From assembly GCF_030695125.1 (NCBI RefSeq), contig NZ_JAUYTP010000031.1:1-64000 (forward strand): 64,000 bases of DNA, read 5' to 3'. The notes beneath the pieces are model-generated. The model saw nothing but the letters and a program-made list of their open reading frames with translations, was not told the origin of the DNA and did not search any database. A program made the position numbers and the translations under genes. The DNA is from Allobosea sp. (GTDB taxonomy: Bacteria; Pseudomonadota; Alphaproteobacteria; Rhizobiales; Beijerinckiaceae). Positions 7,992-59,637 of the stretch are shown in pieces (within the stretch, counting starts at the first letter, position 1; each line of letters begins with the position of its first letter).

Positions 7992-8101
7992 GGCATGTCC
8001 TGTTTTTGAATAAGCCTGACTTCACATGACCGTCACAGACTTAAGCATAACTTATATGACCGTCGGCCCAAGCCGGCATCCGCATGCGTCTGGAGCACGT
8101 C
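7992..8101. promoter_or_regulatory. Divergent promoter region with repeated ATGACCGTC motif
   Basis: The spacer between the LysR gene and the transporter operon is the only AT-richer stretch here. It contains ATGACCGTC twice, at 8026-8034 and 8056-8064 (30 bp apart, about three helical turns), and the dyad-like run TTAAGCATAACTTAT at 8041-8055 between them. This arrangement fits LysR recognition and activation sites. Motifs are seen; assignment to the LysR protein is inference. Confidence 0.4.

Positions 8102-9060: not shown

Positions 9061-9064
<4 letters not shown>
8102..9064 (+). CDS. Phosphonate (2-aminoethylphosphonate-type) ABC transporter substrate-binding protein
   Basis: 320 residues from ATG 8102, which has TGGAG six bases upstream; ATG 8084 is an in-frame alternative without a ribosome site. 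Signal peptide MANSTSGFIGLAAALAMTLS ends near QAAE. The mature part (VVIYNASDSVNSALVAAFK) is an extracellular solute-binding family 1 / iron(III)-type fold. The order binder, ATPase, fused permease, class III PLP enzyme matches clusters annotated as putative 2-aminoethylphosphonate transporters. The ligand is inferred from that context. Confidence 0.8.
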
Positions 9065-10196
<1,132 letters not shown>

Positions 10197-10200
<4 letters not shown>

Positions 10201-13660: not shown

Positions 13661-13948
13661 CTCGACGGTCGCGCGGGCCGGCGGCTGCGTCCGGTCCACC
13701 CAGGCTTCCCAGGCTGCGTTCATCTCGGCGAAGGTCGAAATGTCCTTGAGCCAGATATTGGCGACGACGATGCGGGTCTTGTCGGTTCCGGCGAGCGCCA
13801 GATAGCCGTCGATCTGCGCGAGGATGTCCGCCGTCTGCTCCTTGACCCCGCCGCTGCGGTCCTTGGCGGTCAGGCCCGAGAGAAAGGCGAAGCCGTTGGC
13901 GACGAGGACCTTGCTCAGCCGTCCGGTGATTTCATGGCGCGTGATCAT
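13604..13948 (-). CDS. RidA family (Rid/YjgF) protein
   Basis: 114 residues, the normal family length, from ATG 13948 with GGAGACCCCC upstream; longer in-frame starts give a non-family N-terminus. LSKVLVANGFAFLSGLTAKD and the closing AADDILVEIQVQALA, plus the arginine in PPARATVESRL, are typical. RidA proteins hydrolyse reactive enamine/imine products of PLP or flavin enzymes. It follows the GMC oxidoreductase by 85 bases on the same strand and is probably its operon partner, so it may clear imines made by the flavin amine oxidase at 20004. It is tail-to-tail with the PbfA-like gene with a 57-bp coding overlap. Confidence 0.85.
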   Translation of the reverse strand: MITRHEITGRLSKVLVANGFAFLSGLTAKDRSGGVKEQTADILAQIDGYLALAGTDKTRIVVANIWLKDISTFAEMNAAWEAWVDRTQPPARATVESRLAADDILVEIQVQALA

Positions 13949-14033
13949 GGGGGTCTCCTCGGGGAAAAGCGGGGGGTGGCGAAGGTCCGGCGCCTGTGTC
14001 CGCGATCCGGGCGCCGATGGCAATGCGCAGCCG

Positions 14034-15644: not shown

Positions 15645-15694
15645 GGCGAACTCCCTGCCGGCTTCGATCGTTTGCGGCGTACAGGCTGTAGGGT

Positions 15695-15746
15695 GAATTG
15701 GGCTCGTCACGAAGGGCCGTTCTGTTCGGCTCGCCAGTCCAATTCC
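15695..15746 (-). promoter_or_regulatory. Composite operator, copy 1 (upstream of GMC gene)
   Basis: Read on the minus strand: ATTGGACT, 11 bases, CAGAACGGCCCTT, then a spacer and AGCCCAATTC. The ATTGGACT-to-CAGAA spacing (19 bases start to start) is identical to copy 2 at 17265-17314. Only the spacer before the inverted half-site is one base longer. It ends 51 bp upstream of the GMC start. This is the most diverged of the three copies. Binding by the adjacent MocR regulator is inferred. Confidence 0.65.
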
Positions 15747-15754
15747 GTCGTGGT

Positions 15755-17239: not shown

Positions 17240-17264
17240 GACGTCTCCTCAGGGCGCGCCCTGA

Positions 17265-17314
17265 GGATTGGACTGCCGCTTTGATCAGAATGGACCTTGG
17301 GTTCAGACCAATTC
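17265..17314 (+). promoter_or_regulatory. Composite operator, copy 2 (MocR / dehydratase divergent region)
   Basis: Contains direct half-sites ATTGGACT (17267-17274) and AATGGACC (17289-17296), 22 bp apart, followed by an inverted half-site AGACCAAT (17305-17312). This two-direct-plus-one-inverted layout resembles GabR-type MocR operators. It lies 26 bp from the MocR start and 70 bp from the dehydratase start, so it can act on both promoters. Copies at 15695-15746 and 21310-21359 keep the same geometry. Confidence 0.75.
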
Positions 17315-17383
17315 AAGCCCCCTCTCCGAACATGCCGGAGGCCGCAATCGCGCGGCGTCGCGGCGTCAGCATTGGCAGTGGCT

Positions 17384-18490
17384 ATGAAGATCACGCGGCT
17401 CGAAAGCTTCACCACGGTGGATGTCGGCTTCGTCCGCGTGACCTGCGAGGATGGCAGCCAGGGATGGGGGCAGCTCTCCCCCTACAATGCCGACATCACC
17501 GCCACCGTCTTCCACCGCCAGGTCGCGCGCTGGGCGATCGGCGAGGATGCGCTCGCCATCGACGAACTCGTCGCCACCATCGGCGAGCGCGAACACAAGT
17601 TCCCAGGTTCCTATCTCTGCCGTGCCCTGACCGGGCTCGACACGGCCTTGTGGGACTGGCGCGGGCGCCGGGAGCGCAAAAGCGTCTGCGAACTGCTCGG
17701 CGGCACGCCGCGGCCCTTCCCGGTCTACGCCTCCAGCATGAAGCGCGGCGAGATCACGCCGGAGGCGGAGGCGCAGCGTCTCGCCCGTCTGCGCGACGCC
17801 CATGGCTTCCGCGCCTTCAAGTTCCGGGTCGGGCGCGAATGCGGCCGCGACCGGGACGAGTGGCCGGGCCGCACAGACGCCATTGTCCCGCAGGTGCGCG
17901 CGGCGCTGGGGGCGGATGCGACCCTGCTGGTCGATGCCAACAGCGGCTATTCGCCGGCCAGGGCGATTGCGGTCGGCCGCATGCTGCAGGACCATGGCGT
18001 CGTGCATTTCGAGGAGCCTTGCCCCTACTGGGAACATGCCTGGACGCGCGAGGTCCGCGAGGCGCTCGATCTCGACGTCACCGGGGGCGAGCAGGACTGC
18101 GACCTCGCGGTTTGGCGGGCGATGATCGAGGGCCGGGTCGTCGACGTGGTCCAGCCCGACATCTGCTATATCGGCGGTGTCGGGCGCATGCTGACCGTGG
18201 CGCGCTGGGCGGCGGAGGCCGGACTGCCGGTGACGCCGCATTCGGCCAACCAGTCGATGGTGACGGTCTTTACGCTTCATGTCATGGGTGCGCTCGCCAA
18301 TGCGGGGCCCTATGTCGAGTTCTCGATCGAGGGGCCCGACTATTATCCCTGGGAGCAGGGCCTGCTGCGAAACCCGCCCACGGCCAGGGACGGTATGGTC
18401 GCGATCCCCTCCGAGCCCGGCTGGGGCGTCGAGATCGAGCCCTCCTGGCTCGAGCGGGCCGACTACCAGGTGACCGAGGTCGCAACGTGA
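17384..18490 (+). CDS. Mandelate racemase/enolase-superfamily dehydratase or racemase
   Basis: 368 residues from ATG 17384 (MKITRLESFTTVDVGFVRV). Metal ligands Asp184 (LLVDANSG), Glu210 (HFEEP) and Glu236 (TGGEQ) are spaced exactly 26 residues apart as in mandelate racemase. The Asp259-His286 dyad (VQPDI, TPHSANQ) and Lys146 in AFKFRVG complete the mandelate racemase subgroup. This set abstracts a proton alpha to a carboxylate, giving acid-sugar dehydration or racemisation. The substrate therefore probably has a carboxylate. First gene of a three-gene unit (GTGA overlap with the aldehyde dehydrogenase). Substrate unknown. Confidence 0.85.
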   Translation: MKITRLESFTTVDVGFVRVTCEDGSQGWGQLSPYNADITATVFHRQVARWAIGEDALAIDELVATIGEREHKFPGSYLCRALTGLDTALWDWRGRRERKSVCELLGGTPRPFPVYASSMKRGEITPEAEAQRLARLRDAHGFRAFKFRVGRECGRDRDEWPGRTDAIVPQVRAALGADATLLVDANSGYSPARAIAVGRMLQDHGVVHFEEPCPYWEHAWTREVREALDLDVTGGEQDCDLAVWRAMIEGRVVDVVQPDICYIGGVGRMLTVARWAAEAGLPVTPHSANQSMVTVFTLHVMGALANAGPYVEFSIEGPDYYPWEQGLLRNPPTARDGMVAIPSEPGWGVEIEPSWLERADYQVTEVAT

Positions 18491-25996: not shown

Positions 25997-26072
25997 GGGC
26001 GGTTAGCTCAGCCGGTAGAGCATCTCGTTTACACCGAGAGGGTCACAGGTTCGAGCCCTGTACCGCCCACCA
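25997..26072 (+). tRNA. tRNA-Val (anticodon TAC), integration target of the island
   Basis: 76 bases with encoded CCA. Acceptor GGGCGGT/ACCGCCC, D-arm TAGCTCAGCCGGTAGAG, anticodon stem CTCG/CGAG around TTTACAC, T-arm ACAGG-TTCGAGC-CCTGT. The 3' half after the anticodon arm belongs to the island end, because the other junction at 38634-38682 has a different T-arm (GGCGG/CCGTC). The gene remains intact after integration. Confidence 0.95.
26024..26044 (+). repeat. Attachment site attL (21-bp core in tRNA-Val anticodon arm)
   Basis: The 21 bases beginning CTCGTTTACACCGAGAGGGT are exactly repeated at 38634-38654, 12.6 kb away. The integrase gene begins its 3' end 68 bases further on. Tyrosine integrases of this kind often cross over in the symmetrical anticodon stem-loop, which is what the core covers. 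Confidence 0.9.
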
Positions 26073-26111
26073 TATCTAATTCCATGCCGCATAATCGAAA
26101 TCTCCATTCTG

Positions 26112-27287
26112 CTAGATTTGACGGGCAGCGGATGTTCTTCCCGCGCCCATGATATGCCCACGATTGCGCGGTCCGAACGCAGCATTGAGACCATCGCGGC
26201 GACTGACATCGAGATGGCCGTAGACCCTGTCTGCAACCTTAGCTGACATGCCTGCGACCTTCGCCGCCGTATGCAGATCCATTCCTGATGTCAGCACCCA
26301 CGTCATGAACGAATGCCGCAGCACATGCGGCGTCACCCCTTCCAGTCCCGCAAGCTTGCAGGCGCGCGAGAATCCCTTCTTGACCGATGCGACAGGCTCA
26401 CCATGGAAAGTGATGACCCATCCGCTATTCGTCTTCGGCTGCCAGCGGCGCAGATGAGCTAGGAGCCGATCCGGCAGGCCGATTGGCGGTTGCCGTTTGT
26501 TTGTGACGGCCCTGCCCTCGGCTAAACGGAAATATGTGCCTTGCGAAAGGTCGATGTACGAACGATCTGCGCCAGCCGTGAAACTCGCCGAAAGGATCGC
26601 TGAAGATCGAGTGCCGCTGTAGAGGCCGATGAGGATGAACCGGCATAGATGGCGCAGCGGTCGCAGGATCTGATTTTTGGGACCGTGCTGTTTGTAGCGC
26701 CAGCATGTCCATAAGAGCCGAGCGGCCTCGGCTCGCGTCAAAAACCGCTGACGTGGCTGCGGCGCAGCCGGATATGTGATTGCTGGCGCGTAGGCGAGAA
26801 CGCCTTCCTTTACCGCGTGCGAGAGACAGGCGCGGAGGTGTTCCAGATCCCGGCGCACGCTCGATCGTTTTGGCCTTTTGGGCTTTCTTCCAGGCAGCGT
26901 ATCGGGGGCAATCTTGCCTTCAACCCGCAAATCTACATAGCGACGACACCAGTCCGCGTTGATTGCGTCGCAGCGCGCGCCTTTCGCGTGTTGCAACAGT
27001 AGCAGCGTCAACCCGGCAACCGTATCGCCGCGCGCGAGATCTTTGGCCCTCGTCTCAACATAGAGGTTGAGAACATCGGCGATCAGGATTTGAGAGGGAT
27101 CACTACGGCTGGCCTGCTTGAGGCGCGTCCGCGCGAGGTATTGCGCAAGCTCTCCTTCAGCCTGCTCACGCTCGCTTTCGCCGCAACCAGTGCTGTGTTC
27201 TCTCCCACGATCAAGGATGACCCACACGCCTTCCCTGCCCCACCGCTCCCGGAAATAGAGACGCGGTCCCTTTGCACGGCGCGGCAT
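26112..27287 (-). CDS. int: Tyrosine-type site-specific integrase of the island
   Basis: 391 residues. Catalytic set: arginine in LIGLYSGTRSSAI, HVLRHSF (H-x-x-R box), a later histidine-containing block and the tyrosine in RVYGHLDVS. The N-terminal arm SAM-like domain covers about residues 60-170. Its 3' end faces tRNA-Val, 40 bases beyond the tRNA end, the usual layout for a tRNA-targeting integrase. The first 205 bases of the gene are overlapped in another frame by the excisionase-like gene. Confidence 0.95.
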   Translation of the reverse strand: MPRRAKGPRLYFRERWGREGVWVILDRGREHSTGCGESEREQAEGELAQYLARTRLKQASRSDPSQILIADVLNLYVETRAKDLARGDTVAGLTLLLLQHAKGARCDAINADWCRRYVDLRVEGKIAPDTLPGRKPKRPKRSSVRRDLEHLRACLSHAVKEGVLAYAPAITYPAAPQPRQRFLTRAEAARLLWTCWRYKQHGPKNQILRPLRHLCRFILIGLYSGTRSSAILSASFTAGADRSYIDLSQGTYFRLAEGRAVTNKRQPPIGLPDRLLAHLRRWQPKTNSGWVITFHGEPVASVKKGFSRACKLAGLEGVTPHVLRHSFMTWVLTSGMDLHTAAKVAGMSAKVADRVYGHLDVSRRDGLNAAFGPRNRGHIMGAGRTSAARQI

Positions 27288-27478
27288 TTTTGAATCATCC
27301 CTTTCACGGCAGCGAGTGAGGTGTACTCACGCTTTCCAATCATCCAGGTATCGAGATGGCCCTTGTCACGTTCAGCACGCAAGGTGCGGACCGTCATTGT
27401 CCCATCTGGGAATGCTTTTGACGCCGCCACCTCTAAGGTGATCGGAGCGTCCGCATCAATGTCGACAGAGCCGAACAT
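27083..27478 (-). CDS. Excisionase-like small DNA-binding protein overlapping the integrase start
   Basis: 131 residues from ATG 27478. The core AFPDGTMTVRTLRAERDKGH, then DTWMIGKREYTSLAAVKGMI, is the pattern of the small winged-helix protein that precedes integrases in many Hyphomicrobiales islands (from memory), usually annotated excisionase. The last 68 codons share DNA with the integrase gene in a different frame; that tail ends PAVVIPLKS as in relatives I recall, so I treat the overlap as real. Likely role: directionality factor for excision. Confidence 0.65.
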   Translation of the reverse strand: MFGSVDIDADAPITLEVAASKAFPDGTMTVRTLRAERDKGHLDTWMIGKREYTSLAAVKGMIQKCRAVQRDRVSISGSGGAGKACGSSLIVGENTALVAAKASVSRLKESLRNTSRGRASSRPAVVIPLKS

Positions 27479-27509
27479 TCCGAGACTTACTTTTTGCGAG
27501 AGAGGACAA

Positions 27510-27549
27510 GCCCCGACCAATCGGAGAAGGAACTACAATTGGTCGGGGC
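27510..27549 (-). terminator. Perfect 12-bp inverted repeat between structural and integration modules
   Basis: GCCCCGACCAAT at 27510-27521 pairs perfectly with ATTGGTCGGGGC at 27538-27549 around a 16-base loop. It lies 70 bases past the stop of the DUF2190-like gene and upstream of the excisionase-like gene, both on the minus strand. It could end the structural operon transcript or serve as an operator; there is no long T-run. Confidence 0.5.
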
Positions 27550-27619
27550 AATCGACTGCGGGAGACCACCAACCCCACAGTCCCCGCGCCGCTCATGCAA
27601 ACGGCGCGGATTACTAAAA

Positions 27620-27949
27620 TCAGACAGGCAGGCCGAGCTTGACGTTGACCGTGCCCGATGGATTGGCGGCGACGGATACCGCTACGCCGAGCTTGGTGTT
27701 GCCGCTGGCGGTTTTCGTGACGAGCTTGTTCGTGCTGTCCCAATAAACGGCGTCACCGATGGCGATGGCGAGAGCCGAAACCTTGGGCAGCTTGAAAACG
27801 CCTTCCGTCACAAGATCCAGGTCGCTCCCGGATGCGGCTGTGCCGGCTGCAATGCCTAGGATCGAGCCGATGATTACGACATCGCCAGAGAGCACATTCG
27901 CGGGCGCCGGAAGGGTCAAATTCTTCCCCGCTTGGACATAGTTTTTCAT
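27620..27949 (-). CDS. DUF2190-like capsid-associated (decoration) protein
   Basis: 109 residues, glycine, alanine and valine rich. MKNYVQAGKNLTLPAPANVL, an internal GDAVYWDSTNKLVTKTASGN and TKLGVAVSVAANPSGTVNVK are characteristic of DUF2190 proteins encoded beside capsid genes and thought to be head decoration or stabilising proteins. Four bases downstream of the head-tail joining gene. Confidence 0.8.
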   Translation of the reverse strand: MKNYVQAGKNLTLPAPANVLSGDVVIIGSILGIAAGTAASGSDLDLVTEGVFKLPKVSALAIAIGDAVYWDSTNKLVTKTASGNTKLGVAVSVAANPSGTVNVKLGLPV

Positions 27950-27952
27950 GGC

Positions 27953-28162
27953 TTACAGCCCTTTCGAGGTTGAGAAACGGATGGTTGTCGGATGGGCGCC
28001 GGAAAGCCGCCGTTCGGCTTCCGCGATGGCGCGGGCCATTTCCGAGTCCGTGCCGTAGCGGATGCGTTCACCGTTTTGGTCCGTCACCTCCCGGACCCCG
28101 GAGAGGCGAGCGCGCAAGAGCTTGTCACGCCAGGTTGCAAGTTGATCGACGCTGACACCCAT
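27953..28162 (-). CDS. Phage head-tail joining protein, gpW-like
   Basis: 69 residues from ATG 28162. The pattern VDQLATWRDKLLRARLSGVR, then a GERIRYGTDSEMARAIAEAE segment, is that of small gpW-type head completion proteins (two helices with a beta hairpin). It starts 6 bases after the capsid stop. In lambda the homologous gene lies between terminase and portal; here it follows the capsid. Confidence 0.75.
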   Translation of the reverse strand: MGVSVDQLATWRDKLLRARLSGVREVTDQNGERIRYGTDSEMARAIAEAERRLSGAHPTTIRFSTSKGL

Positions 28163-28167
28163 GGGAA

Positions 28168-29952
28168 TCAGAGCCCCGGATTGCGGACAGCGCCGCGCCA
28201 ATCGACCGCGCCAGCCCCGAAATCGAGCACGACGCGATACTCTGTCGAGAGCACGTCCCAACCTTCCCGCGATGCCATCTGCGGGCCGGGCGCGGACGAC
28301 AGGTAGCTGTATTCGAGCACCGGAGCCGTGGCCGGATCAGCGAAGAGATACCAACTATCATCCGTGATACGCGGCTCGATCAACGGAATGAGTTTGCCTG
28401 CGAACGGATTCACGTCGCTCACTGTATTGGCCGTGATCTGTGCGACGATCTGCTCTGCAGCCGTTTCCAACTCGGGACCGACCAGAAGGTATTTCGGGAC
28501 GACCTGAATAACGGTTTTGCCGTCGAGCCCCTTCACGGTTCGCAGCGCCTTTCGAGCATCCGATAGCTCGATGAAGGTCAGTCCAGCGCCAGGAGACAGC
28601 AGGTTCCCATGATCGGCGTGGAAGAGCCGCTTGCTGTCTTCGCCCATCACGGGACCGGCGCCACTCGACTGCGAAAGGAGGCTCCAAAGAACCTCAGCTT
28701 CTGTTGCCGCTGCAGCCTGCCCTGCAACGCGCGCCCAGTCGCCGAAGGCGTTCAGATCGTCATTGATCAACGCCTTGCGCGTGATCGAGAACATGCCGGC
28801 ATAGGTGTCGAGCACGTACGACTCTGAGGTCTCAGAGCGTGAGACCGCTTTGATTTCGCCGGACTCCGTCACTTTCGACAGCGCAGAAAGCTCGCCAAGC
28901 TTCAGCGCTGTCCCTGCCCGGAAATCGGGTCGCGAGCCCTGCCTGCCGATCTGCTTCAGCGGCGACGCAGCAGCAGTGTAAGCCGCCATGAGCGTGCGAT
29001 TGCCGACACCCTGCAGCAACTGAGGGAAATCGCTGGTCGTATGAGCCGCGCGGAAAAGCGCATCAGGATTCATGCCGCGCGTCGAGATGCCCCGGACGTG
29101 AAGGCATTCGGTTGCCAGGTCGCGGAGACTAGCGCCGCTGAACTGCCTTCCAGCCTCACTGGGAGCCGTCCCGGTAAGCCGGGCGTCGAGAGCATCGCCC
29201 ATGGCGCGGATACGAGCTTCCGGCGCTTCCTGAACCACCGTCGCGCGGATCTGCCGCGTGCCAGCCGAACGCTGTACCATGGCCTCGCGAGCTGCGGTGC
29301 GCACCTCCTCAATCGTCGCGTTGCCCGAAATCTGGCCTTCGGCGAAGGATGGCGGCAAGTCGGCAAGTTCGCCGATCGAGCGAATACGCGCCTGATCCGC
29401 ATCGGGCATGATGGGCGTGCGATCGAGAATTTCGTTCTCATTATCCATGGGTAGTCCCCGAATTCTGGCGCCAGGATCGGCCCCGATAGGCACGACGGAC
29501 AGCTCGAAAATTGACCATCGGACGGCCGTGCGGATGCGCCCTCCGGTCTCAGGGGTTCTGGACTCGGCCCATTGGTGGACGCGAAAGCCGATCGACACGT
29601 CGCGAAGGAAGCCGTTGCGAATTCGATCAACGATGGGCGCAGCATCGTCAGACTGTGCCAGGCGCAACACGCCGATAAGCCTGCCGGCTTCAGATCTGAC
29701 CGATTGAATGATGCCGATGACGTTGCGCGCTGACGTGGCGTTGTGAGCGTCAAGAATCGGAGTCCCGATCAAACCGCGCATATCGAGGCCAGCAGGGTCC
29801 AGACGCTCGATATGATCGCGGCGCTGCACGTCTGCATAGGTCGTTAGCACCGCCTCGACGGTGAAATCGGACTCCGACCATGAGGCCGGCGCCACGTCGC
29901 CACCACGGCGATAGTGAAGCTGCAAATCGTCAGACCGGAAATGAACCGTCAT
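28168..29952 (-). CDS. Prohead protease / major capsid protein fusion
   Basis: 594 residues. N-terminal third is an HK97-type prohead protease: His70 in LDAHNATSARN and Ser120 in RDVSIGFRV, with ELSVVPIGADPGARI following. A charged linker (about 165-280) then leads to an HK97-fold major capsid domain, with ITRKALINDDLNAFG and the terminal EYRVVLDFGAGAVDWRG. Such fusions make protease and shell from one chain and would be cut during maturation. Start ATG overlaps the portal stop (ATGA). Confidence 0.9.
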   Translation of the reverse strand: MTVHFRSDDLQLHYRRGGDVAPASWSESDFTVEAVLTTYADVQRRDHIERLDPAGLDMRGLIGTPILDAHNATSARNVIGIIQSVRSEAGRLIGVLRLAQSDDAAPIVDRIRNGFLRDVSIGFRVHQWAESRTPETGGRIRTAVRWSIFELSVVPIGADPGARIRGLPMDNENEILDRTPIMPDADQARIRSIGELADLPPSFAEGQISGNATIEEVRTAAREAMVQRSAGTRQIRATVVQEAPEARIRAMGDALDARLTGTAPSEAGRQFSGASLRDLATECLHVRGISTRGMNPDALFRAAHTTSDFPQLLQGVGNRTLMAAYTAAASPLKQIGRQGSRPDFRAGTALKLGELSALSKVTESGEIKAVSRSETSESYVLDTYAGMFSITRKALINDDLNAFGDWARVAGQAAAATEAEVLWSLLSQSSGAGPVMGEDSKRLFHADHGNLLSPGAGLTFIELSDARKALRTVKGLDGKTVIQVVPKYLLVGPELETAAEQIVAQITANTVSDVNPFAGKLIPLIEPRITDDSWYLFADPATAPVLEYSYLSSAPGPQMASREGWDVLSTEYRVVLDFGAGAVDWRGAVRNPGL

Positions 29953-31325
29953 GAGGCTTCATCCTCTGTCGCCGGCTTGTCTTCCGTCTTGGCGGGCTGC
30001 GGAGCACCGAACGTCAGGCCAAGCGTGCTTTCCCGCTCGCGATCGGCGGCGATCTCCGAGTCCAGCTCATCGATATTCCAACCGCGTTCGGCCACCTTCT
30101 GGCGCCGGGATGCGAGGCCAGCAGTGATTTCGGCGATATCCGCCTCAACATCTTTCGCAGGATCGACCTGCAGAGGTTTCGGCGTGATCCAATCGCAGCG
30201 GCGGTCTGCGGTCTCGTCAACCGTTCCAGCCAACATCTCGCCAGTCAGAAAGCGGCGCCAGACAGGCGCCAGCAGTTGCGGCACAAGACAGTGATATTGG
30301 AACGCCTCGATCCGGCGCCGGAACGGCAGGAGGCCAGCCCGCAAGCTGGAATAATTGGCGCCGGTCAAATCCCCATCGACCATAAAGGCTGGAAGCCCCA
30401 TGCCGGCAGCAAGCGCACGGATTTGCGCCTTCAGGAGCGGAGCGACTGCCTGCGATTGCTGCGGGGAACTGAAGGTGACGGTCTTTCCACCGCCAACGCG
30501 AATGAGCGTGCCCGGCTCAAGCGACGGCTGAGCTTCACCCTTGAACGGATCTTCACCGCCGAAATCGTTTTGATCGGTAATGACGCCGCAGAACATCGCA
30601 GCGACGCTGGCGCCCATAAGGAGCGCATCCGTCAGCTTGTCGAGTTCGCCAGCGGACAAGATGATTGAGGCAGTCCAGGGCACGCCGCGCACCTGCCCCG
30701 GCATCAGCGGCCGGAAGATATGCAAGACATCATCGGCAGAGACGCGCACCGGGGGCGCCCAGGATGCAAAGGTGTCAGTCAGCCGTGAGGGAGATATCCA
30801 ATAGGCGACACGCTTGCCGGCAGCGTCGAACTCAACGCCCTGCACGATCTGAGCGCCGTTACCGAGTTCGCGCGTTACGGAGCGATCGACTTGCTCGACA
30901 TCGAGCACGCGGAGGGTGGAACCCGACTCATCGTATTGCAGCAGGACGAAGGACTCGCCGCGCACCACAACGTCTGTGACGATAAGCGCCTGCAGTCCGT
31001 AGAAATCAGTGCGCCCATCAGCGTCGGCGGCTTCCGACCATTCGTCGAAACGTTTGACCAGATCGGGATTTGCAGAAGACGGGCGAATTCCGCTCCCGAT
31101 CGCCTCTCCGACGATGTTGCCGACCGCATTCCCGATCAGAGGGTTATTCGCGACTAGATAGGCCGATCGGCTGGCGAGCGTCTGCCCTGCCCCGCCAATC
31201 TCGGAATTGACGCGCCCGAATGTGCCGGCGCCGAACATGCGCCTGCCCATGCTCGCGCCGTCGAAACGGCGAGTCTGGGAAGGCGCTATCCAACGGGCCA
31301 GGGTGCTGCGGGCGCGGTCGAGCAT
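29949..31325 (-). CDS. Phage portal protein, lambda gpB type
   Basis: 458 residues from ATG 31325, which shares a base with the preceding TAA (TAATG); ATG 31346 is an alternative. ARSTLARWIAPSQTRRFDGA, VGNIVGEAIGSGIRPSS and GESFVLLQYD match lambda-like portals. The portal forms the dodecameric DNA gateway of the capsid and docks the terminase. C-terminal part is acidic (KTEDKPATEDEAS). Confidence 0.9.
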   Translation of the reverse strand: MLDRARSTLARWIAPSQTRRFDGASMGRRMFGAGTFGRVNSEIGGAGQTLASRSAYLVANNPLIGNAVGNIVGEAIGSGIRPSSANPDLVKRFDEWSEAADADGRTDFYGLQALIVTDVVVRGESFVLLQYDESGSTLRVLDVEQVDRSVTRELGNGAQIVQGVEFDAAGKRVAYWISPSRLTDTFASWAPPVRVSADDVLHIFRPLMPGQVRGVPWTASIILSAGELDKLTDALLMGASVAAMFCGVITDQNDFGGEDPFKGEAQPSLEPGTLIRVGGGKTVTFSSPQQSQAVAPLLKAQIRALAAGMGLPAFMVDGDLTGANYSSLRAGLLPFRRRIEAFQYHCLVPQLLAPVWRRFLTGEMLAGTVDETADRRCDWITPKPLQVDPAKDVEADIAEITAGLASRRQKVAERGWNIDELDSEIAADRERESTLGLTFGAPQPAKTEDKPATEDEAS

Positions 31326-31813
31326 TATTCGCCACTCCGCGTGCAAGCCAAGAGTCCGCGAATCTCGCGAGCCGCTGGCGCCGTGAACCGGCCCATCTCG
31401 ACACTTGCGAGATATCCCGCAGCCGCAACCTCAACTCTTGCGTGCGTGTCTCGCTCCCAATCTGCGAAAATGCGAGGCGACAACTCCCCGTACTCACGCA
31501 CCAAAGCGACATGAAAACTGAAATCCTCCCCCGCCTCGACGCGCCTGATCGCTTCGTGAGAGTTTTTCTGAAGCCAGCGGGCATAAGCCTCGCAAAGCCA
31601 ACGATCGACCCCGCACTCATTTGCGAGATAGATCATGCGAAGGGCGCAAATCGAGGCCTCATCGTACAGGAAAACCCGACCTCGCTGATCGTCGTGTGGG
31701 AGATAAAAACGCACCGAGTAATTGCGGAGCGCCTTGTCGAGAGACGGTTGTTTCTCGTCAGGCAGGCCGTCTAACAGCGCGAACATCTTGGTGGCGTCAG
31801 AGAGTGAGAACAT
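31325..31813 (-). CDS. Unknown protein upstream of portal
   Basis: 162 residues from ATG 31813 with GGGAG seven bases upstream. No family recognised. Mostly helical and charged; a segment around residues 47-85 (RVFLYDEASICALRMIYLAN, then ECGVDRWL) is faintly reminiscent of MerR-type helix-turn-helix, which is only a suggestion. Translationally coupled to the portal gene. It occupies the site where lambda-like phages keep gpW, so it could be a packaging or regulatory protein of the island. Confidence 0.6.
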   Translation of the reverse strand: MFSLSDATKMFALLDGLPDEKQPSLDKALRNYSVRFYLPHDDQRGRVFLYDEASICALRMIYLANECGVDRWLCEAYARWLQKNSHEAIRRVEAGEDFSFHVALVREYGELSPRIFADWERDTHARVEVAAAGYLASVEMGRFTAPAAREIRGLLACTRSGE

Positions 31814-31978
31814 GAGTAACTCCCAGGGTTCGACTCCATATCTCAGATTTGAGTTGTGGAGTCCAGAGATATTTGCGATGATGATTGCGCCCATTGGTCG
31901 TGGGTATGTCTCCTTCCCGACAAGCAGCGGGGACAGGCGCAACTTACGCTTTGCCCCCGCTGCATCCGGAACCAACCG

Positions 31979-32209
31979 ATGTGCCGAAAGCCGATATATC
32001 TTTTAGCCGTTCACGCTGAGGCCGTGCTCATTCGGGCCGGACTCGATCAGTCAGCAGCTCGCGCGCATATCGAGGAGCTACCGCAACGCTTTGTGGGCCA
32101 CTGGTGGAGAGTTCGCCGGTCTGATCTGGCGAAAGCTATTCATAGCATTAGAAATCAACACAAAGTTGAAAATCCAACTTTTGGTGGATTAGATTGTGAT
32201 TTGCTATAA
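31979..32209 (+). CDS. Small unknown island protein
   Basis: 76 residues from ATG 31979. HAEAVLIRAGLDQSAARAHI and FVGHWWRVRRSDLAKAIHSI suggest a compact helical, basic, possibly DNA-binding protein. The frame is open further upstream but without a ribosome site. It is on the plus strand, opposite to the flanking packaging genes, and less GC-rich than they are. Function unknown. Confidence 0.45.
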   Translation: MCRKPIYLLAVHAEAVLIRAGLDQSAARAHIEELPQRFVGHWWRVRRSDLAKAIHSIRNQHKVENPTFGGLDCDLL

Positions 32210-32254
32210 TCAATACAGGACTTCATGATGCGATCACCCGAAAAGGAGAGCGTC

Positions 32255-32512
32255 ATGCAGTTAGTTATTCCTGATTTTCTTATTTCCGCCGATGCCTGGA
32301 ATGCAGGATTGACGGGTGATTGGGCTAAAGACAATGCGATCGGCCGCCAGCGTGCTGATGCCTTGCAAGCCAACATCCGAATGACCGGCAATTATCCCCT
32401 TCTCAGCCACGCCATTACCTTGCTACGAGAGCGGCCACGCGATGGAATTGAGATTGGTTTTTTGCAGCGGCTTAGTGAAATGATCGCACCTACCCATCTA
32501 ATCATAGGATAG
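32255..32512 (+). CDS. Small unknown island protein
   Basis: 85 residues from ATG 32255, with AAAAGGAGAG seven bases upstream, the strongest ribosome site in the island. MQLVIPDFLISADAWNAGLT, ending RLSEMIAPTHLIIG. No family recognised. It precedes the 71-residue gene by six bases, so the two are co-transcribed. Low-GC codon use suggests a different origin from the packaging genes. Confidence 0.6.
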   Translation: MQLVIPDFLISADAWNAGLTGDWAKDNAIGRQRADALQANIRMTGNYPLLSHAITLLRERPRDGIEIGFLQRLSEMIAPTHLIIG

Positions 32513-32518
32513 AATCAA

Positions 32519-32734
32519 ATGGGAATTGACCCCTTAGAGAAAGCCCGAATTAACGGACTATCAGCTGGCGTTAGGATAATTGATGACCTGGTCCACAATG
32601 GTGATTTGGACGAATGTATTAATCGTATCCGATTAGCCGCGACAAACGATTCAAAATTCAATTGGCACCTCATTGAGGCAATAGCTTCATTGGCCGCAAC
32701 AGGTTTTCAATCAGATCAAAAGCCTACCGATTGA
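32519..32734 (+). CDS. Small unknown island protein
   Basis: 71 residues. Acidic helical sequence (GVRIIDDLVHNGDLDECINR). AT-rich for the window. Ends 11 bases inside the convergent terminase large subunit gene. Together with the gene at 32255 it makes a small reverse-oriented cassette within the packaging module, the kind of place where phages and satellites carry accessory (moron) genes. Function unknown. Confidence 0.55.
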   Translation: MGIDPLEKARINGLSAGVRIIDDLVHNGDLDECINRIRLAATNDSKFNWHLIEAIASLAATGFQSDQKPTD

Positions 32735-34490
32735 GCCAGTTACTGCGGATCACGGCAGGTGTGGGGTTCAAAGCCTGCCCTGCCGATGCCACCTCTTCCG
32801 CCCGCCTGTCGAGATTGACGCTGATCAGGCCGCGCACGGCGATCGCATAGATTGTCGCGTCGAGACATTCCGCCCGCAGTCCGGGCTTCCGCTCCCATAG
32901 CCTTGTCGGCACGCCGCGCGTGTATCGGACGACCACGCGCTCCGATGCCACTTCCTCGAAATAGCGCGGCTCCAAATCCTGCGAAAACCGAATCCCCTGA
33001 CCCCGGCTTAGCTTAGCTATCAGGCGTGATTTCTCCCCATCCACGCCGACGATGAATAGACGGCTTCCCTTGGTCACGCTTGCCGCAATGGCAGGGCGAG
33101 TCCCGGAAACACCCTTGATGGCCACGATTTTGCGAGCAAAGCGCGGCTGACAGAACGAGATCACACGGTCCATGTGTTCGCCATCGCCCGCGTCCACTGC
33201 AGCCGCGTCAACCCGAAGCGTCCCGCCGTTGGGATGGGACCAGGTCGATCGCAGCAACTCGTCTAGCTCGGCCCATGTGGTGTCCTCTGCCGGGCTGCCC
33301 CAGATGACGGCATTGGCAAGAATGAAAAGCTGATCTCGGCCGTGACCGACAAAGACAATCTCGAGTCGATCGCGCTGCACGTCCACACCGCCCGTAACGA
33401 TTAGCGCGTCCGCAGGAATGGCATTCAAGCCGAACGGCTCCGCTCGCGCGGCAAGTTCGTTTTCATCAACCTCTTCGGCCGCCTCGCGCCAGCCTTCGGC
33501 CATCAGCGTGTTCGTCCAAGTCTGCAATTGATCGACGTTGCGCTTCGCAGACAGGAATTCGACGGCCACTTTCCCCCATGCCGCGTTCGCGAGATGCGAG
33601 ACCAGGACATTGCACCGAAAGCCCGCATGCCCCTTCACTTCAGGGCGGGTTGCGCGCCAGCGGCCTGCAGCGACCATTTCGGCCTTCTGCCTCTCTTCGA
33701 CAATGCAGCCGGCAGCCTCACAGACGAAATACGCGCGTTCTGGCTGGCCTTCCGGCCATTGAATATTTCGCCATAGGATCTGCTGGAAATGACCGCAGCT
33801 TGGGCAGCGCAGCTCGAAAATTCGCTGATCGGACTCCCGGTAGCCGCGAAGAACGTGACTCGTCTCCTCATAGATGGGTGTGCTGCCCATGATGATTTTG
33901 CGATTGCCGAAGGACAGTGTCCGCCGCTCAGCGAGCGTGATAGGTGAGCCCTCGGGGCCTGACTCCATAGCGTCCGCTTCATCAATCAGCAGAATGCGGA
34001 CGTTGTGACGGCGCAGATTGCGCGGCGATTTCGCCGCCACGATTTTCAGGCTACCGGCCGGGAAGCGACGGGAAAGGAGCGTTGAGCGGCCCGACTCGTC
34101 AGCCTCTGCAGAAAGCAGACCGCGCAATATCGGGCTGGCATCAAAAATCGGCTCGATATCGCTGACGACGAAATCACGCGCATCCGACTCCGTTGGCAGC
34201 AAGGCCAGGATGGGCGCCGGCTCGTTCGCCACATAGCTGGCGATTGTCGCCGTGATCAGCGTCGAAAGGCCAAGTCGTACCGGCTTCACGAGAGTCACGC
34301 GCTCGATCGCAGGATCTGAGATCGCGTCAGCAATTCCTCGTTGCACCGGAGTCAGTCGGATCGGCCCAGGGGATGCCGCGACTGACTCCGGTAGGCGGAT
34401 ATTTTCTTCGATCCATTCCGACAACCGCAATCGCGGCGGCGGAATGAGCGAGCGCAATGCGGCAGCGCGAGCCTTGAAAATCGCGCTCAT
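32724..34490 (-). CDS. Terminase large subunit, lambda gpA type
   Basis: 588 residues. Variant Walker A in VTLVKPVRLGLSTLI, Walker B RILLIDEADAME and motif III IIMGSTPIYEE form the packaging ATPase (about residues 50-260); a zinc-ribbon-like ELRCPSCGHFQQI with a second cysteine pair follows; the C-terminal nuclease starts near VTGGVDVQRDRLEIV with aspartates in RVDAAAVDAGDGEH. Lambda-type terminases cut at cos sites, so the island probably has its own cos site. Start overlaps the upstream stop (ATGA). Confidence 0.92.
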   Translation of the reverse strand: MSAIFKARAAALRSLIPPPRLRLSEWIEENIRLPESVAASPGPIRLTPVQRGIADAISDPAIERVTLVKPVRLGLSTLITATIASYVANEPAPILALLPTESDARDFVVSDIEPIFDASPILRGLLSAEADESGRSTLLSRRFPAGSLKIVAAKSPRNLRRHNVRILLIDEADAMESGPEGSPITLAERRTLSFGNRKIIMGSTPIYEETSHVLRGYRESDQRIFELRCPSCGHFQQILWRNIQWPEGQPERAYFVCEAAGCIVEERQKAEMVAAGRWRATRPEVKGHAGFRCNVLVSHLANAAWGKVAVEFLSAKRNVDQLQTWTNTLMAEGWREAAEEVDENELAARAEPFGLNAIPADALIVTGGVDVQRDRLEIVFVGHGRDQLFILANAVIWGSPAEDTTWAELDELLRSTWSHPNGGTLRVDAAAVDAGDGEHMDRVISFCQPRFARKIVAIKGVSGTRPAIAASVTKGSRLFIVGVDGEKSRLIAKLSRGQGIRFSQDLEPRYFEEVASERVVVRYTRGVPTRLWERKPGLRAECLDATIYAIAVRGLISVNLDRRAEEVASAGQALNPTPAVIRSNWLNR

Positions 34491-35527
34491 GGCTTTGGTG
34501 TATAACCCATCATCGACAGACGCTCACGACGAGGCCCCATTGCTCTGACAAGTTTACCCTTCGACAGGGTATACCACACGCCAGGAAGCACTAAGACATC
34601 ATTCACAATATCTCCGGTCTTAGCTGCAACAACATGCTCCAAAACTGGAACATCGTCGTCCCTAAGGCTCCATTCACTCAACATTAAACCGCCACCCAAA
34701 GCACATTGGGCCTTAGCATTGGGGCCTAAACCAACGGCAATACCAAATCTTCCAGCGCTCGCGTAGGCGTCTTCTTGCGGCATTTCGAGGCTGACGCTTC
34801 TACGGGCGATCGCATCGCCGCACAGTCCGCGAGCATCTGCCCATCCGCCGTTCGTTGTGACAGCGCAACCAAAATTCCCCCAAGCGTGTGCACCTCCCGC
34901 AAACGCAACGGCATTTCTATTGCTCCCGATTGTAAAGGCTTCACCGCCACTGCCGCGAGCCGCAACGTGTTTATCGTCCGAAATCACACTGCTTTGCGGA
35001 GCGCGGGTTGTGCACGTTTCATCGTTAGGCGTTGCATCATCACAAAGTATCTTCGCCAAGTCAGATAGTACCCCTTTGCGAGCCATCAGCGGGATCATGA
35101 ACATGACCGCGCCGACCGCATCACCCGAATAAACAACCCACCCACGGGGCGCGCGATGTGCGCCACCATTCGCAGATGGCATGCATTCGCTTTCCAGAAC
35201 TGCGATGATTTGCCAGGTCGCGTTTTTGTATCTCGCTAAACGAGTCCAGTCTCCAACCCCATTTAGGAACCCATGAATACCATAATATGCACCGCCAAAA
35301 TCAGCGACGACATAGCCGCTAGAGGGGTATAGAAATGAATCTAGATCCTCCACCATAAGACGTTCTTGAATGGCCTTTCCCGACGCCAAGCCATTTTCAC
35401 TGCTCGTGCGAAGCAAGTAACCAACTCCTTTGCCTGCCGGCTCGCTCAACCAAGGCTCTTTGTCAGCGAAATTCTTATGTTGAATCTTTCCACCTATCAG
35501 GGTGAAAAGATCAAATATCGAACTCAT
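34487..35527 (-). CDS. Unknown protein between the terminase genes, glycine/alanine repeat region
   Basis: 346 residues from ATG 35527, one base after the TerS stop. N-terminal half (MSSIFDLFTLIGGKIQHKNF) unrecognised. The middle (about residues 200-270) has a glycine/alanine periodicity of 7-9 residues, for example EAFTIGSNRNAVAFAGGAHA, then WGNFGCAVTTNGGWADARG, reminiscent of left-handed beta-roll folds such as YadA-type heads. GC content is lower than in TerL. Such a large gene is not normally found between TerS and TerL, so it may be cargo. It is coupled to both neighbours by overlaps. Confidence 0.65.
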   Translation of the reverse strand: MSSIFDLFTLIGGKIQHKNFADKEPWLSEPAGKGVGYLLRTSSENGLASGKAIQERLMVEDLDSFLYPSSGYVVADFGGAYYGIHGFLNGVGDWTRLARYKNATWQIIAVLESECMPSANGGAHRAPRGWVVYSGDAVGAVMFMIPLMARKGVLSDLAKILCDDATPNDETCTTRAPQSSVISDDKHVAARGSGGEAFTIGSNRNAVAFAGGAHAWGNFGCAVTTNGGWADARGLCGDAIARRSVSLEMPQEDAYASAGRFGIAVGLGPNAKAQCALGGGLMLSEWSLRDDDVPVLEHVVAAKTGDIVNDVLVLPGVWYTLSKGKLVRAMGPRRERLSMMGYTPKP

Positions 35528-35528
35528 G

Positions 35529-36044
35529 TTATTTCCGAGCGTCATTGCCAATCTCCGTAAGAGCATCGCGGATCTCGCGATCGATAATTTCCAAATCGTG
35601 GGCGGATAGATTCAACCGGGCGGAGACTCGCGAAGGGACGGCAAGCATTCCAGCCCGGACGGTTCGCAGAATTTCGGCCCATGAGTTTTGGACCGTCACA
35701 ACGGACACAAGCTCGCCGCGCTTTTCCTGATTTCGCAATTCGAGGTGATCGGCCTGCTCTTTTGCCAGGCGCAATTTCTCGGCTTTAAATTCAGGATCGG
35801 CGCCGCCGCGTATTTTCGCGGACGTTATAAGATATTGGATATAGCCGCGCGTGGCGTCCGTTGTGCTGTATCGGCCGCAAGCCGATTTGCGGATTACACT
35901 CTCGCTAAGCAGCCTTCGCACCTGCCGGGTGCTCACCCCCCAGAAGGTGGCAAGATCGCCCTCCCCGGCCAAATCTGGCCGATCAGCGTGGGGGCTGGCG
36001 TCCTTCGGCCCATCAGAGCCGAGCAAATCGTCAAAGTCGCTCAT
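35529..36044 (-). CDS. Terminase small subunit (Nu1-like)
   Basis: 171 residues. A helix-turn-helix LATFWGVSTRQVRRLLSESV at about residues 31-50, then a helical region EKLRLAKEQADHLELRNQEK and ENQ-like C-terminal helices match Nu1-type small subunits that recognise cos and recruit TerL. The N-terminus SDFDDLLG is repeated in the island PrimPol-helicase. Transcribed with the terminase large subunit. Confidence 0.85.
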   Translation of the reverse strand: MSDFDDLLGSDGPKDASPHADRPDLAGEGDLATFWGVSTRQVRRLLSESVIRKSACGRYSTTDATRGYIQYLITSAKIRGGADPEFKAEKLRLAKEQADHLELRNQEKRGELVSVVTVQNSWAEILRTVRAGMLAVPSRVSARLNLSAHDLEIIDREIRDALTEIGNDARK

Positions 36045-36402
36045 ATCGGAAACTCGAATCTGAAAATACTGCAGCGAGCGAAATGCTGCGGCTCTGTGGC
36101 CCCCCTATCGGCGTCGTCAGAGAGGGACCCATCAACACCCTGTTGACGTGATCGACTTGGAATTGCGTCCGTTGTGACGAGCACGATGCTGCGCCCATGC
36201 ACTGCCTCGCACTCGTCACTTACGAAGCAGTGGGGAATTGAGGGCCGGGACAATGGGACACCCCCTATAGGGGTGTGTCCCTGTCTGTCCCGCTGCCCGC
36301 CCTCAGTATTCCGGGGTACAGGGTAGGAGATGTCCCGGACATGTCCCGGATGTCCCGCCCATGAATCGGCCTTCAGAAAAAGGCGCGCTGCGAGATCGAG
36401 GC
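36045..36402. repeat. Non-coding island segment with TGTCCC/GGGACA repeats and a palindrome
   Basis: Between TerS and the PrimPol gene, 358 bases without a convincing gene. TGTCCC occurs at 36276, 36286, 36331, 36342 and 36351, with GGGACA at 36255. The near-perfect palindrome GGACACCCCC-TATA-GGGGTGTGTCC lies at 36256-36280. Four more copies (36608, 36629, 36635, 36645) fall inside the end of the PrimPol gene. This looks like an iteron-type origin or regulator-binding array, or a cos-like packaging site next to TerS. A 121-codon frame starting at ATG 36406 crosses the array and is probably not a gene. Confidence 0.6.
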
Positions 36403-38505
36403 TCATTGATCAGCCTCCAAGTCGTCAAAGTCGCCATCGGGAATTGCGTGTGGATCGTCGATAAAGACGGCCTCACCAACGCGATAAACAATGCCGCTAC
36501 GGAAAAGCCCTTCAAAGGCGCGCTGCACTGCCTTGCGGCATGTTTCGGGGTTTTCGCTGGCGCAGATTTTAGGTGACGAGCGACATGACGCCCGCCACTC
36601 GTCCAATGGGACACCTTGGGACTCGTCCGGGACATGTCCCGCTTTGTCCCGGAGGATTCTCAGGGCTTCGCGCTCACGCGGGTTCAGTTTGATCGGCTTC
36701 GGCGCGCTTCCGGCTTCCACCTCGTCACAACGCGCGATCGATATGGGATCACCATCATCATCCGTGCCCATGTCGACAGTGCCGATGCGGAACGCCAAAT
36801 CGAGATCGCAGGGGCCGTTCCGATTTTTCGTCAGCCTTCCGCGAATGATGCCGCTCTCGTCTCGCGCCTGAAGCTCAATCGCAAAATCGAGCGCACCGTT
36901 CAAAAGGGAGTGCCCGCGCGGCGTGCCGTTGGAGTCCTTCGTGCTGTGATGGATCAGAATGACAGCGGCGCCGTGCTTCGTCAGGGAACGCGCAACCGCT
37001 ACAACCCTGCCCATGCCCTCCGCTGCATTTTCCTCCAAGCCAGGAAATGCCATGGCCAGCGTGTCTATGATGATCAGCGCCGGCCTTCGTTCCGCAGCGG
37101 CCGTCCGCAACGCGGCAAGGTCTGGTGAGTCCTTGGCCAGGAGATTGGACACGCCCTCGACCAAGGTGAAGCCATCAGCGTGCCCATGAGTGAGGCGAAG
37201 TGCCGTGACGCGGCCTCGCATCCCATGGGGATCTTCAGCAGCGACATAGAAGACGCCTCCGGCTTTCGTCCGCATACCGAACGCCCGCTCGCCTTGTGCG
37301 ACCTTAAAGCTGAGATATGGGGCGATCAGGGATTTACCGGCGCCAGGCGCACCGAAGATGCACCCCACGTCGCGCGGCGCGATCAATCCCTTGACGATGT
37401 AACCCCGCGACGGCGCATCGCCGCATTGATCGGGCGTCAGAAAGGTCAGGCGGGATGGCTTTGGTGCCGATGCCGGATCTATGGCGTCGAGATTGTCGAA
37501 TTCGATCGGTTCCGGCGATGGCGCGCGCTTCCATGCGCGGTCTATGGCGCGTTGCCCCCTACCCTTTGCGACCTTCTCCTCTTTATCGACGTGCGATTGC
37601 GCTTTGGGATTGCCGGCGACGGATAGCTCGAAACCTGCCTTATCATCGCCGCCCGCTTTCAGCCGGCAGGCGAGACGATAGAGTTCTCCCGATGCGCTGG
37701 CATCGTCCGCATGCTCGGCTTCCTCGTCAGCCTTGCGCCGCTTTCCCTTCGGCAGCGCAGTCGCGTCGAGATCATCAGCGCGGTCGATATGGCGCCCATC
37801 AACCAGGCGCGTTTCGATCGGCGGTTGCCCTTCGACATTCCCACCATAGTAAGCTTGCGAGAGGGTGAAGCTGGCGCCGTCTAGCGCACCGTCGAATAGA
37901 CCGTTCAAGCGCATCATGAAGCGCTCGCGATGATCTGGCGCTTGCTCCTCTGCGAACGGAACGAAGAGGCGCCAGCGGGGCGCTTCGGGCCGGTGTGATG
38001 GCGTCGTGTAGATCAGCGCGGCAATGTTGGCAGCCTGCAGCCGCCCTTCCGCCTCCAATGGGCTGATTTCCCCGCCGTCATAATCAGCTTCGACGCCGCT
38101 GACTGCCTGCACATTTGCGTTGTTGCGGAGGCAATTCTTATCGGTGCGCTGATCACCGAAGCGAGCCAGCTTGAACCAAGGGAGTTCGGCCTTGGTGCGC
38201 CCGCTCTCAGAACCGACCACGCGCGCCAGGTCGCGTAGTGACAGACGATGATCTGCCTTGCGGGAGGCTGCCTGTGTGGGGAATCGCGTGACATGTATGG
38301 GTTTGTCGAGCGGCGAAGTCGGTCCCAGCAGATCATCAAAATCGCTTGGATCAATATTCCCGTAATGGTAACGATGGCGCTGCTCAATATCGCTATGCTG
38401 ATCGCTGCCGTGTCCCTTTGCAGAGGGCGCGGCAGTTTCGTTTGCGTGGTCGGGCGGCCAAGGCCGTCCGAAAAAAGAGGCCAGCAGTGAAGACGCTTGT
38501 TCCAT
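36403..38505 (-). CDS. PrimPol-helicase replication protein of the island
   Basis: 700 residues from ATG 38505 (15 more if started at 38550). N-terminal archaeo-eukaryotic primase-like domain: acidic motif GVEADYDGG near residue 140 and the YTTPSHRPEAPRWRLFVPFA block. C-terminal RepA/AAA_25 helicase domain: Walker A FGAPGAGKSL at about 385-392, Walker B ALIIIDTLAM and sensor-like VILIHHSTKDSNG. It would prime and unwind the excised island's DNA. SDFDDLLG at residues 54-61 copies the TerS N-terminus. The end of the gene contains GGGACA repeats continuing downstream. Confidence 0.85.
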   Translation of the reverse strand: MEQASSLLASFFGRPWPPDHANETAAPSAKGHGSDQHSDIEQRHRYHYGNIDPSDFDDLLGPTSPLDKPIHVTRFPTQAASRKADHRLSLRDLARVVGSESGRTKAELPWFKLARFGDQRTDKNCLRNNANVQAVSGVEADYDGGEISPLEAEGRLQAANIAALIYTTPSHRPEAPRWRLFVPFAEEQAPDHRERFMMRLNGLFDGALDGASFTLSQAYYGGNVEGQPPIETRLVDGRHIDRADDLDATALPKGKRRKADEEAEHADDASASGELYRLACRLKAGGDDKAGFELSVAGNPKAQSHVDKEEKVAKGRGQRAIDRAWKRAPSPEPIEFDNLDAIDPASAPKPSRLTFLTPDQCGDAPSRGYIVKGLIAPRDVGCIFGAPGAGKSLIAPYLSFKVAQGERAFGMRTKAGGVFYVAAEDPHGMRGRVTALRLTHGHADGFTLVEGVSNLLAKDSPDLAALRTAAAERRPALIIIDTLAMAFPGLEENAAEGMGRVVAVARSLTKHGAAVILIHHSTKDSNGTPRGHSLLNGALDFAIELQARDESGIIRGRLTKNRNGPCDLDLAFRIGTVDMGTDDDGDPISIARCDEVEAGSAPKPIKLNPREREALRILRDKAGHVPDESQGVPLDEWRASCRSSPKICASENPETCRKAVQRAFEGLFRSGIVYRVGEAVFIDDPHAIPDGDFDDLEADQ

Positions 38506-38633
38506 CAGCGGACCGCCTTCTGCTGAAGAACGCGCCCACGGTATGCCCAAGATTGACGCGAACCTTCACGGAACGTGCCGGGAACGATGGTGAGAGAGAG
38601 TCCCGATGAGATCGGGGTTAGCGAAGCCCTCGC

Positions 38634-38682
38634 CTCGTTTACACCGAGAGGGTCGGCGGTTCGAGCCCGTCACCGCCCACCA
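38634..38682 (+). repeat. Attachment site attR with tRNA-Val 3' fragment
   Basis: Begins with the same 21 bases as 26024-26044, then diverges (GGCGG instead of ACAGG), keeps TTCGAGCCC, diverges again (GTCA instead of TGTA), and ends CCGCCCACCA like a tRNA. The changed positions are on opposite sides of the T-stem, so the fragment is a self-consistent tRNA 3' half. It is probably the original host end displaced by the island. Confidence 0.85.
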
Positions 38683-38703
38683 TGTCCACCATTATCCTGG
38701 CGA

Positions 38704-59631: not shown

Positions 59632-59637
59632 GTGACC

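Follow-up and report, generated by a model that had tools for sequence, protein, structure and literature searches.

A probable capsid-forming, phage-satellite-like element at a tRNA-Val gene of Allobosea and its compact relatives in Alphaproteobacteria

Background

Mobile elements that encode a phage head and no recognisable tail pose the question of how their DNA leaves one cell and enters the next. We met this question in an Allobosea sp. genome (assembly GCF_030695125.1), in the first 64,000 nucleotides of contig NZ_JAUYTP010000031.1 (hereafter the window), where an island beside a tRNA-Val gene encodes an integrase together with replication, DNA-packaging and head proteins. An earlier note made from these letters alone had proposed that the island packages itself and takes its tails from a helper phage, with a deleted prophage as the alternative. 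Here we report that the island is a bounded insertion at tRNA-Val and belongs to a widespread family of elements of about 12 kb with the same make-up. It is likely a capsid-forming, phage-satellite-like element that uses the tails of a helper, and its spread would then probably depend on tails made by other phages.

The island and its insertion site

The island lies between two attachment-site (att) repeats of 53 nt that are 87% identical and 12,610 bp apart, the left one overlapping the tRNA-Val gene, in agreement with the size and target that the earlier note had given. The G+C fraction is 0.591 between the repeats versus 0.671 and 0.662 in the 5-kb flanks on either side. In four genomes of the same genus (G009, G031, G065 and G038) the site is empty, with tRNA-Asp, tRNA-Val and a chemotaxis gene adjoining one another, and the flanks of the island, when joined in silico, align across the junction in one piece with 75-79% identity at all four empty sites. 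Thus no full prophage was seen at this locus in these relatives. The shared gene order of the left flank ends farther out, where a transporter gene matches a different place in G009.

Genes were called with a simple in-house caller, and the frames of the main genes are open, without internal stops. On the minus strand they run in the order helicase-primase, terS, a 352-amino-acid (aa) orphan, terL, regulator, portal, protease-capsid fusion, gpW, cement, an excisionase-like open reading frame (ORF) and integrase; the interval from terL to the regulator contains two small genes on the opposite (+) strand (Table 1). The integrase, TerS, TerL, portal, protease-capsid fusion, gpW-like and DUF2190 proteins named in the earlier note are each matched by families. 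Its PrimPol-helicase held up in the helicase half, with a RepA-type domain matching PDB 1g8y (E 7e-8), and only partly in the PrimPol half, the primase PHROG matches being weaker and restricted to the N-terminal part. Beyond that list we add the excisionase-like ORF, which is 53% identical to a 123-aa ORF of the same-genus element L049, the regulator, the small genes SM1 and SM2, and the 352-aa orphan.

Family scans of the island proteins matched no tail, baseplate or tape-measure family at E 0.1, and they found no credible lysis gene, only weak holin PHROGs (E 0.013 and 0.03) on the cement protein, whose head-decoration match (E 8e-32) stands far above them. The absence of tail, tape-measure, baseplate and lysis genes described in the earlier note is thereby borne out, these weak holin matches aside.

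A family of compact elements

A capsid search in 150 related genomes gave matches in 26, several of them tailed prophages. We then took as capsid relatives the best 80 of 381 encoding stretches found by scanning genome contigs with seven compact capsids, and labelled their genes by BLAST against the proteins of the island, of Rhodobacter phage RcKemmy and of prophages, the tail references being the genes of tail regions, not each identified singly. All 80 loci belong to Alphaproteobacteria as judged by record titles, and range from Ancylobacter to Rhodobacterales, Acetobacteraceae and Sphingomonadales. The nearest among the matches listed is that of Ancylobacter defluvii (L081), with 70% (capsid), 81% (TerL) and 79% (portal) identity to the island. 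The commonest gene order is primase, terS, terL, variable slot, regulator, portal, capsid, gpW, cement, small gene and integrase. In 77 of the 80 loci gpW follows within two genes after the capsid, an order shared by the island, and a tail-labelled gene occurs in just one (L110), with at least 9 kb of sequence available beyond the capsid in 51. In the tailed relatives examined, gpW precedes the portal or is unrecognised, and tail genes follow the cement gene. Of 387 genomes sampled from the class, 28 gave a capsid match at E <= 1e-20, and by inspection gpW lies directly after the capsid in 10 of these, the genome studied here included.

A search for tRNA-linked exact repeats of at least 16 nt lying more than 3 kb apart, run on 90 loci without a shuffle control, found such repeats in 28. 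Among the scan hits 21 relatives are bounded in this way, and their repeats lie 10,404-13,234 bp apart (median 12,155) at ten kinds of tRNA; L110, which has the capsid and no recognised portal or terminase, was left out of this statistic. Five of the other six repeat-bounded loci measure 10.6-11.8 kb, and the sixth, L046, 16.7 kb. The same compact gene set between tRNA-linked repeats, for which the earlier note had proposed a search, therefore recurs in 21 of the 80 scanned loci. The narrow range of 10.4-13.2 kb would fit a limit set by a small head. The 21 bounded relatives hold 109 non-core genes, none longer than 445 aa except two of ~700 aa, and no tail or lysis family appears among the 25 PHROGs listed of the 59 obtained from the 79 of these 109 genes that were scanned. 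A side observation concerns L311, a 23.7-kb contig with a second primase gene after the integrase of one element, perhaps from satellites in tandem.

Purifying selection acts on the core genes of close relatives: the ratio of non-synonymous to synonymous rates (dN/dS) is 0.05-0.35 in 24 gene comparisons from four close pairs, and 0.09-0.33 over six genes between the island and L081, where synonymous changes are near saturation. Together with the open frames this upholds the earlier statement that the genes, those for packaging among them, are intact. One relative, L094 of Bosea sp. 117, looks decayed, its TerL, portal and capsid genes each being split over two frames.

Among 159 viral contigs examined, of which those only partly covered stood outside the circle check, two end in an exact 127-nt repeat and represent tailless circles. 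The first, L210 (11,371 bp unique), encodes integrase, TerS, TerL, portal, capsid and cement, with the integrase positioned as in an excised form; the second, L333 (9,739 bp), encodes primase, TerS, TerL, portal, capsid and gpW, with no recognised integrase. The 127-nt length is probably that of an assembler k-mer closing the circle. The 7.3-kb contig L043, whose gene order looks permuted, was considered as a further circle and rejected, having no terminal overlap.

Putative replication region, regulator and cargo

The gap between primase and terS measures 117-536 bp in the 45 relatives measured, and a 7-mer is over-repeated in 29 of 45 such gaps (44 relatives and the island; p <= 0.05, 200 simple base shuffles). 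These 7-mers differ between elements, and several near-identical relatives have a common motif. The 358-bp gap of the island holds 7 of its 16 GGGACA/TGTCCC sites; the top 7-mer, CGGGACA, occurs five times there, a count reached in none of 200 base shuffles. We read this gap, from its repeats, as an iteron origin, and it may also hold cos because it abuts terS.

The gene directly upstream of portal belongs to a very diverse family (ORF216; 33 of 42 candidates aligned), of which MerR_1 matched 2 of the 33. The structural model of the island protein (pLDDT, the predicted local distance difference test score, 91) has as its best PDB match in Foldseek the MerR-type CvkR (7xn2; prob 1.00, E 1.3e-3), no match reaching E 1e-3, and it is on this predicted fold that we call the product a MerR/CvkR-like regulator. 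Small genes on the opposite strand occur in 33 of the 56 loci with slot genes, and both SM1 and SM2 have relatives among them. Such genes and the regulator might together form a divergent switch for the head operon.

The variable slot after terL holds 150 genes across the family, of which 93 are at least 100 aa long. In 84 of these 93 that were scanned, N6_Mtase was found in 9, along with EcoRII, BsuBI/PstI, MmeI and type III restriction domains. L036 (Paracoccus), an element ending beside an rRNA operon, has in its slot an HNH endonuclease together with a cytosine methyltransferase. The subfamily made up of L036 and the similar capsids of L115-L158 is marked by restriction-modification genes in the stretch from terL to portal, and several of its other elements end at contig ends. 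The slot of the island itself holds SM1 and SM2 only.

Ancestry of the head genes

A capsid tree of 123 rows was labelled by source, every scan hit counting as compact, and not gene by gene; L038 thus counts as compact despite one weak tail match (E 2.7e-4), and L094, L106 and L144 were left out for their split capsid frames. The compact-labelled rows form two supported groups of 49 and 51 rows with no tailed row inside, and the island capsid pairs with that of L081 at 100% support in the Shimodaira-Hasegawa-like approximate likelihood-ratio test (SH-aLRT). L227 has no firm place in the tree, and L038 groups with the tailed L235. An approximately unbiased test with 51 rows did not reject a constraint that keeps 29 main rows in one group (p-AU 0.514), which is no proof of a single origin. 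In 50,697 phage records the best among the matches listed are about 35-37% (capsid) and 34% (TerL) identical. TerL is not a clean marker of the family: TerL proteins with 57-61% identity occur in L336, which has tail-labelled genes, and in L323 and L325, which have the gene order of tailed phages.

Several loci of the same genus depart from the compact plan. A tape-measure gene of their own is present in L044 (12522-14396), L046 (13182-15098) and L054 (15492-17402), with PHROG E-values of 1e-50 to 1e-69; no tube, sheath or baseplate gene was recognised beside it in these three loci, which also carry head genes and an integrase. Tape-measure matches are weaker in L049 and L050. In the capsid tree L049, L050 and L054 group with the tailed phages L059 and L072, so that head-carrying islands arose more than once. 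Separately, we observed that L049, L050, L054, L110 and L047 are tRNA-linked or compact and carry the protease-capsid fusion with no recognised portal or terminase nearby; possibly these are capsid-swapping satellites.

A fuller account, which we regard as quite possible and put forward tentatively, is that the family is an alphaproteobacteria-wide satellite lineage, independent of the described capsid-forming phage-inducible chromosomal islands (cf-PICIs). It would descend from an RcKemmy-like head in which gpW shifted behind the capsid; a fast-diverging CvkR-like MerR protein would sense the helper, element-specific iterons would drive replication, and restriction-modification genes would travel as cargo. 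Side branches of the same genus would bring their own tape measure, as if setting the length of the stolen tail.

A probable satellite using helper tails, and the alternatives

If the island is a satellite, a helper phage or stress would activate it, perhaps by way of the MerR-like regulator. It would be excised as a circle by integrase and an excisionase and copied from the iteron gap by the helicase-primase, and its own TerS and TerL would pack the DNA into small heads that it also encodes. Through the gpW-like protein these heads would be joined to tails made by a tailed phage, either co-infecting or co-resident, and the lysis genes of that phage would release the particles. Other phage regions are present in the same genome: contig C45 carries one with a tape-measure gene, C64 a part of an RcKemmy-like tailed phage, and C1 a third region. 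On the metagenome contig L327 a rearranged tailless element of the family (478-18255) lies next to a tailed phage that has two tail genes matching those on C64 at 89% and 92% identity. This ties a family element to a C64-like phage in a way that is suggestive only, as the contig may be a mis-join.

Several observations weigh against the use of helper tails. For this copy, excision, particles and a helper are predictions from its sequence. In 28 of the 80 loci less than 3 kb lies downstream of the capsid, so that tails are possible there. The same head order is accompanied by a tape-measure or tape-measure-like gene in L044-L046 and L350. The viral contig L231 carries a minor-tail-like gene (44%, E 4e-56), the stretch after cement in L357 has no recognised identity, and 8 of the 159 viral contigs bear tail labels (L229 and L235 among them look like full tailed phages; a ninth, L189, has only an AAA-ATPase). 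No tRNA or T-arm att sequence was found in the circle L210, and L081, the nearest relative among the matches listed, shows no iterons. Two differences from the cf-PICI component list, given in the last section, also belong here.

A self-sufficient element would deliver its DNA without a helper, by heads that have no tail or by a very reduced tail that escaped detection. Genes with no assigned role are present (the 352-aa orphan, SM1 and SM2), the circle L333 has no recognised integrase, and single tail genes occur in some relatives. We nevertheless regard it as improbable: a joining protein of the gpW type presupposes a partner with a tail, the non-core genes stay within 445 aa except the two of ~700 aa, primase PHROGs have matches in two members, and the scans gave no credible lysis gene.

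It is very improbable that the island came from an ordinary prophage through a sporadic deletion of tail and lysis genes. The head genes are indeed distantly related to those of tailed phages such as RcKemmy (capsid 35-37%), but many genera have this order without tail genes, with a narrow size between tRNA repeats, the two main capsid groups contain no tailed-phage row, a common grouping of the 29 sampled rows was not rejected, close relatives show purifying selection on their genes, and relatives have empty sites. The alternative named in the earlier note is therefore contradicted.

Likewise very unlikely is a head system that the host has domesticated and owns, such as a gene transfer agent. 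Alphaproteobacteria do have such agents, and the purifying selection on the head genes would fit one, but they are defined by having no integrase or att of their own, whereas the island brings an integrase, att repeats, a terminase pair and replication genes. Four same-genus genomes do not have it at this site, and relatives of it occur as metagenome circles.

A satellite with helper tails thus remains our reading of the island. It points to a widespread lineage of tail-stealing satellites in a class for which the literature searched yielded no such satellite, and in which elements of this type may be catalogued as remnants of prophages. Sized, bounded copies of the family exist in named strains, e.g. 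Ancylobacter defluvii (L081) and Sinorhizobium psoraleae (L083), which make helper dependence, sensing by the regulator and defence cargo directly testable.

Features of the island

Table 1. Features between and including the att repeats, in window coordinates
Feature	Position	Strand	Evidence or remark
att copy, left	26024-26076	+	overlaps 3' part of tRNA-Val (25997-26072)
Tyrosine integrase, 391 aa	26112-27287	-	PF00589 E 9.8e-9; phrog_1 E 4.5e-32
Excisionase-like small ORF (weak)	27083-27472	-	overlaps integrase gene; weak DUF1580 below cut-off; no NCBIfam match
Capsid cement/decoration protein (DUF2190)	27620-27949	-	PF09956 E 1.8e-29
gpW-like head-tail joining protein	27953-28162	-	phrog_2545 E 5.9e-12; NF047331 55.8 bits (cut-off 33)
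Prohead protease/major capsid fusion, 594 aa	28168-29952	-	phrog_4523 E 1.2e-154; NF045541 634.7 bits (cut-off 525)
Portal, lambda family	29949-31325	-	PF05136 E 1.8e-76
MerR/CvkR-like regulator (ORF216 family)	31325-31813	-	structure match to CvkR 7xn2
SM1, 94 aa	32228-32512	+	29% to slot gene of L081, E 5e-4
SM2, 71 aa	32519-32734	+	49% / 48% to slot genes of L154 / L158, E 7e-20 / 6e-16
Terminase large subunit (TerL), GpA type, 588 aa	32724-34490	-	PF05876 E 9.8e-81; PF20454 E 4.8e-71
Orphan accessory gene, 352 aa, between terS and terL	34487-35545	-	weak PHROG matches
Terminase small subunit (TerS)	35529-36044	-	phrog_57 E 1.3e-23
Non-coding gap with GGGACA/TGTCCC iterons	36045-36402	-	candidate origin, possibly also cos
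RepA-type helicase with primase-like N-terminal part	36403-38505	-	PF13481 (AAA_25) E 9.9e-33; phrog_906 polymerase/primase E 1.7e-37
att copy, second	38634-38686	+	

The 352-aa orphan has no relative in the 150 related genomes except its own (1/150), no phage match at E 1e-3 and none in the viral contigs; elsewhere it has one partial match of 27% in L095 and one label in L166. Scans for promoters and terminators gave no excess over shuffles (3 versus 3.9 and 10 versus 11.3, respectively). Outside the island, a second low-G+C stretch (0.48-0.50) occupies 57001-60000 of the window, with a single short called gene between 58.1 and 59.6 kb.

Comparison with known systems

Literature on satellites in Alphaproteobacteria, Rhodobacterales, Paracoccus and Rhizobium yielded no such elements, as judged by titles and the start of abstracts, and a text search of a Paracoccus virome paper (PMC6536676) did not find the word 'satellite'. 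RcKemmy and its relatives share with the island the protease-capsid fusion, portal, cement and gpW-like genes, but in RcKemmy gpW precedes the portal, whereas it follows the capsid in the island, and RcKemmy has a full set of tail and lysis genes. The Rhodovastum plasmid RHOAph (L037; 10.7 kb) resembles the island as a small replicon with a protease-capsid fusion gene; unlike it, RHOAph has ParA and toxin-antitoxin genes, and its gene table, which is incomplete, annotates no terminase or portal. As a side observation, a protease-capsid fusion or prohead protease gene is found on small plasmids, namely RHOAph and a 7.8-kb plasmid of Synechococcus elongatus (H35-H38).

MulchRoom and MiniFlayer, satellites of Streptomyces phages, have their own packaging and capsid genes according to PMC10690885, and in this are like the island; the paper describes them as having no recognisable primases and as bearing direct terminal repeats, and their hosts belong to a different phylum. 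The closer parallel is with the cf-PICIs, for which the component list in PMC10690885 names capsid, protease, portal, connectors, TerS, TerL and an HNH endonuclease, with tails taken from the helper. Measured against this list, the cf-PICI gene set that the earlier note had seen in the island stands for capsid, protease, portal, the required TerS and TerL pair, a connector, and the lack of recognised tail genes. It does not stand for the HNH endonuclease, which family scans did not find among the island proteins (in the relatives two HNH PHROGs, one member each, occur among the 79 non-core genes scanned), and the island has one connector, the gpW-like protein, with no second recognised where the list has the plural. 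The island further combines a GpA-type TerL, a protease fused to the capsid and a MerR/CvkR-like regulator. On account of the HNH endonuclease and the second connector we describe the element as one that would work like a cf-PICI, and do not file it as one.

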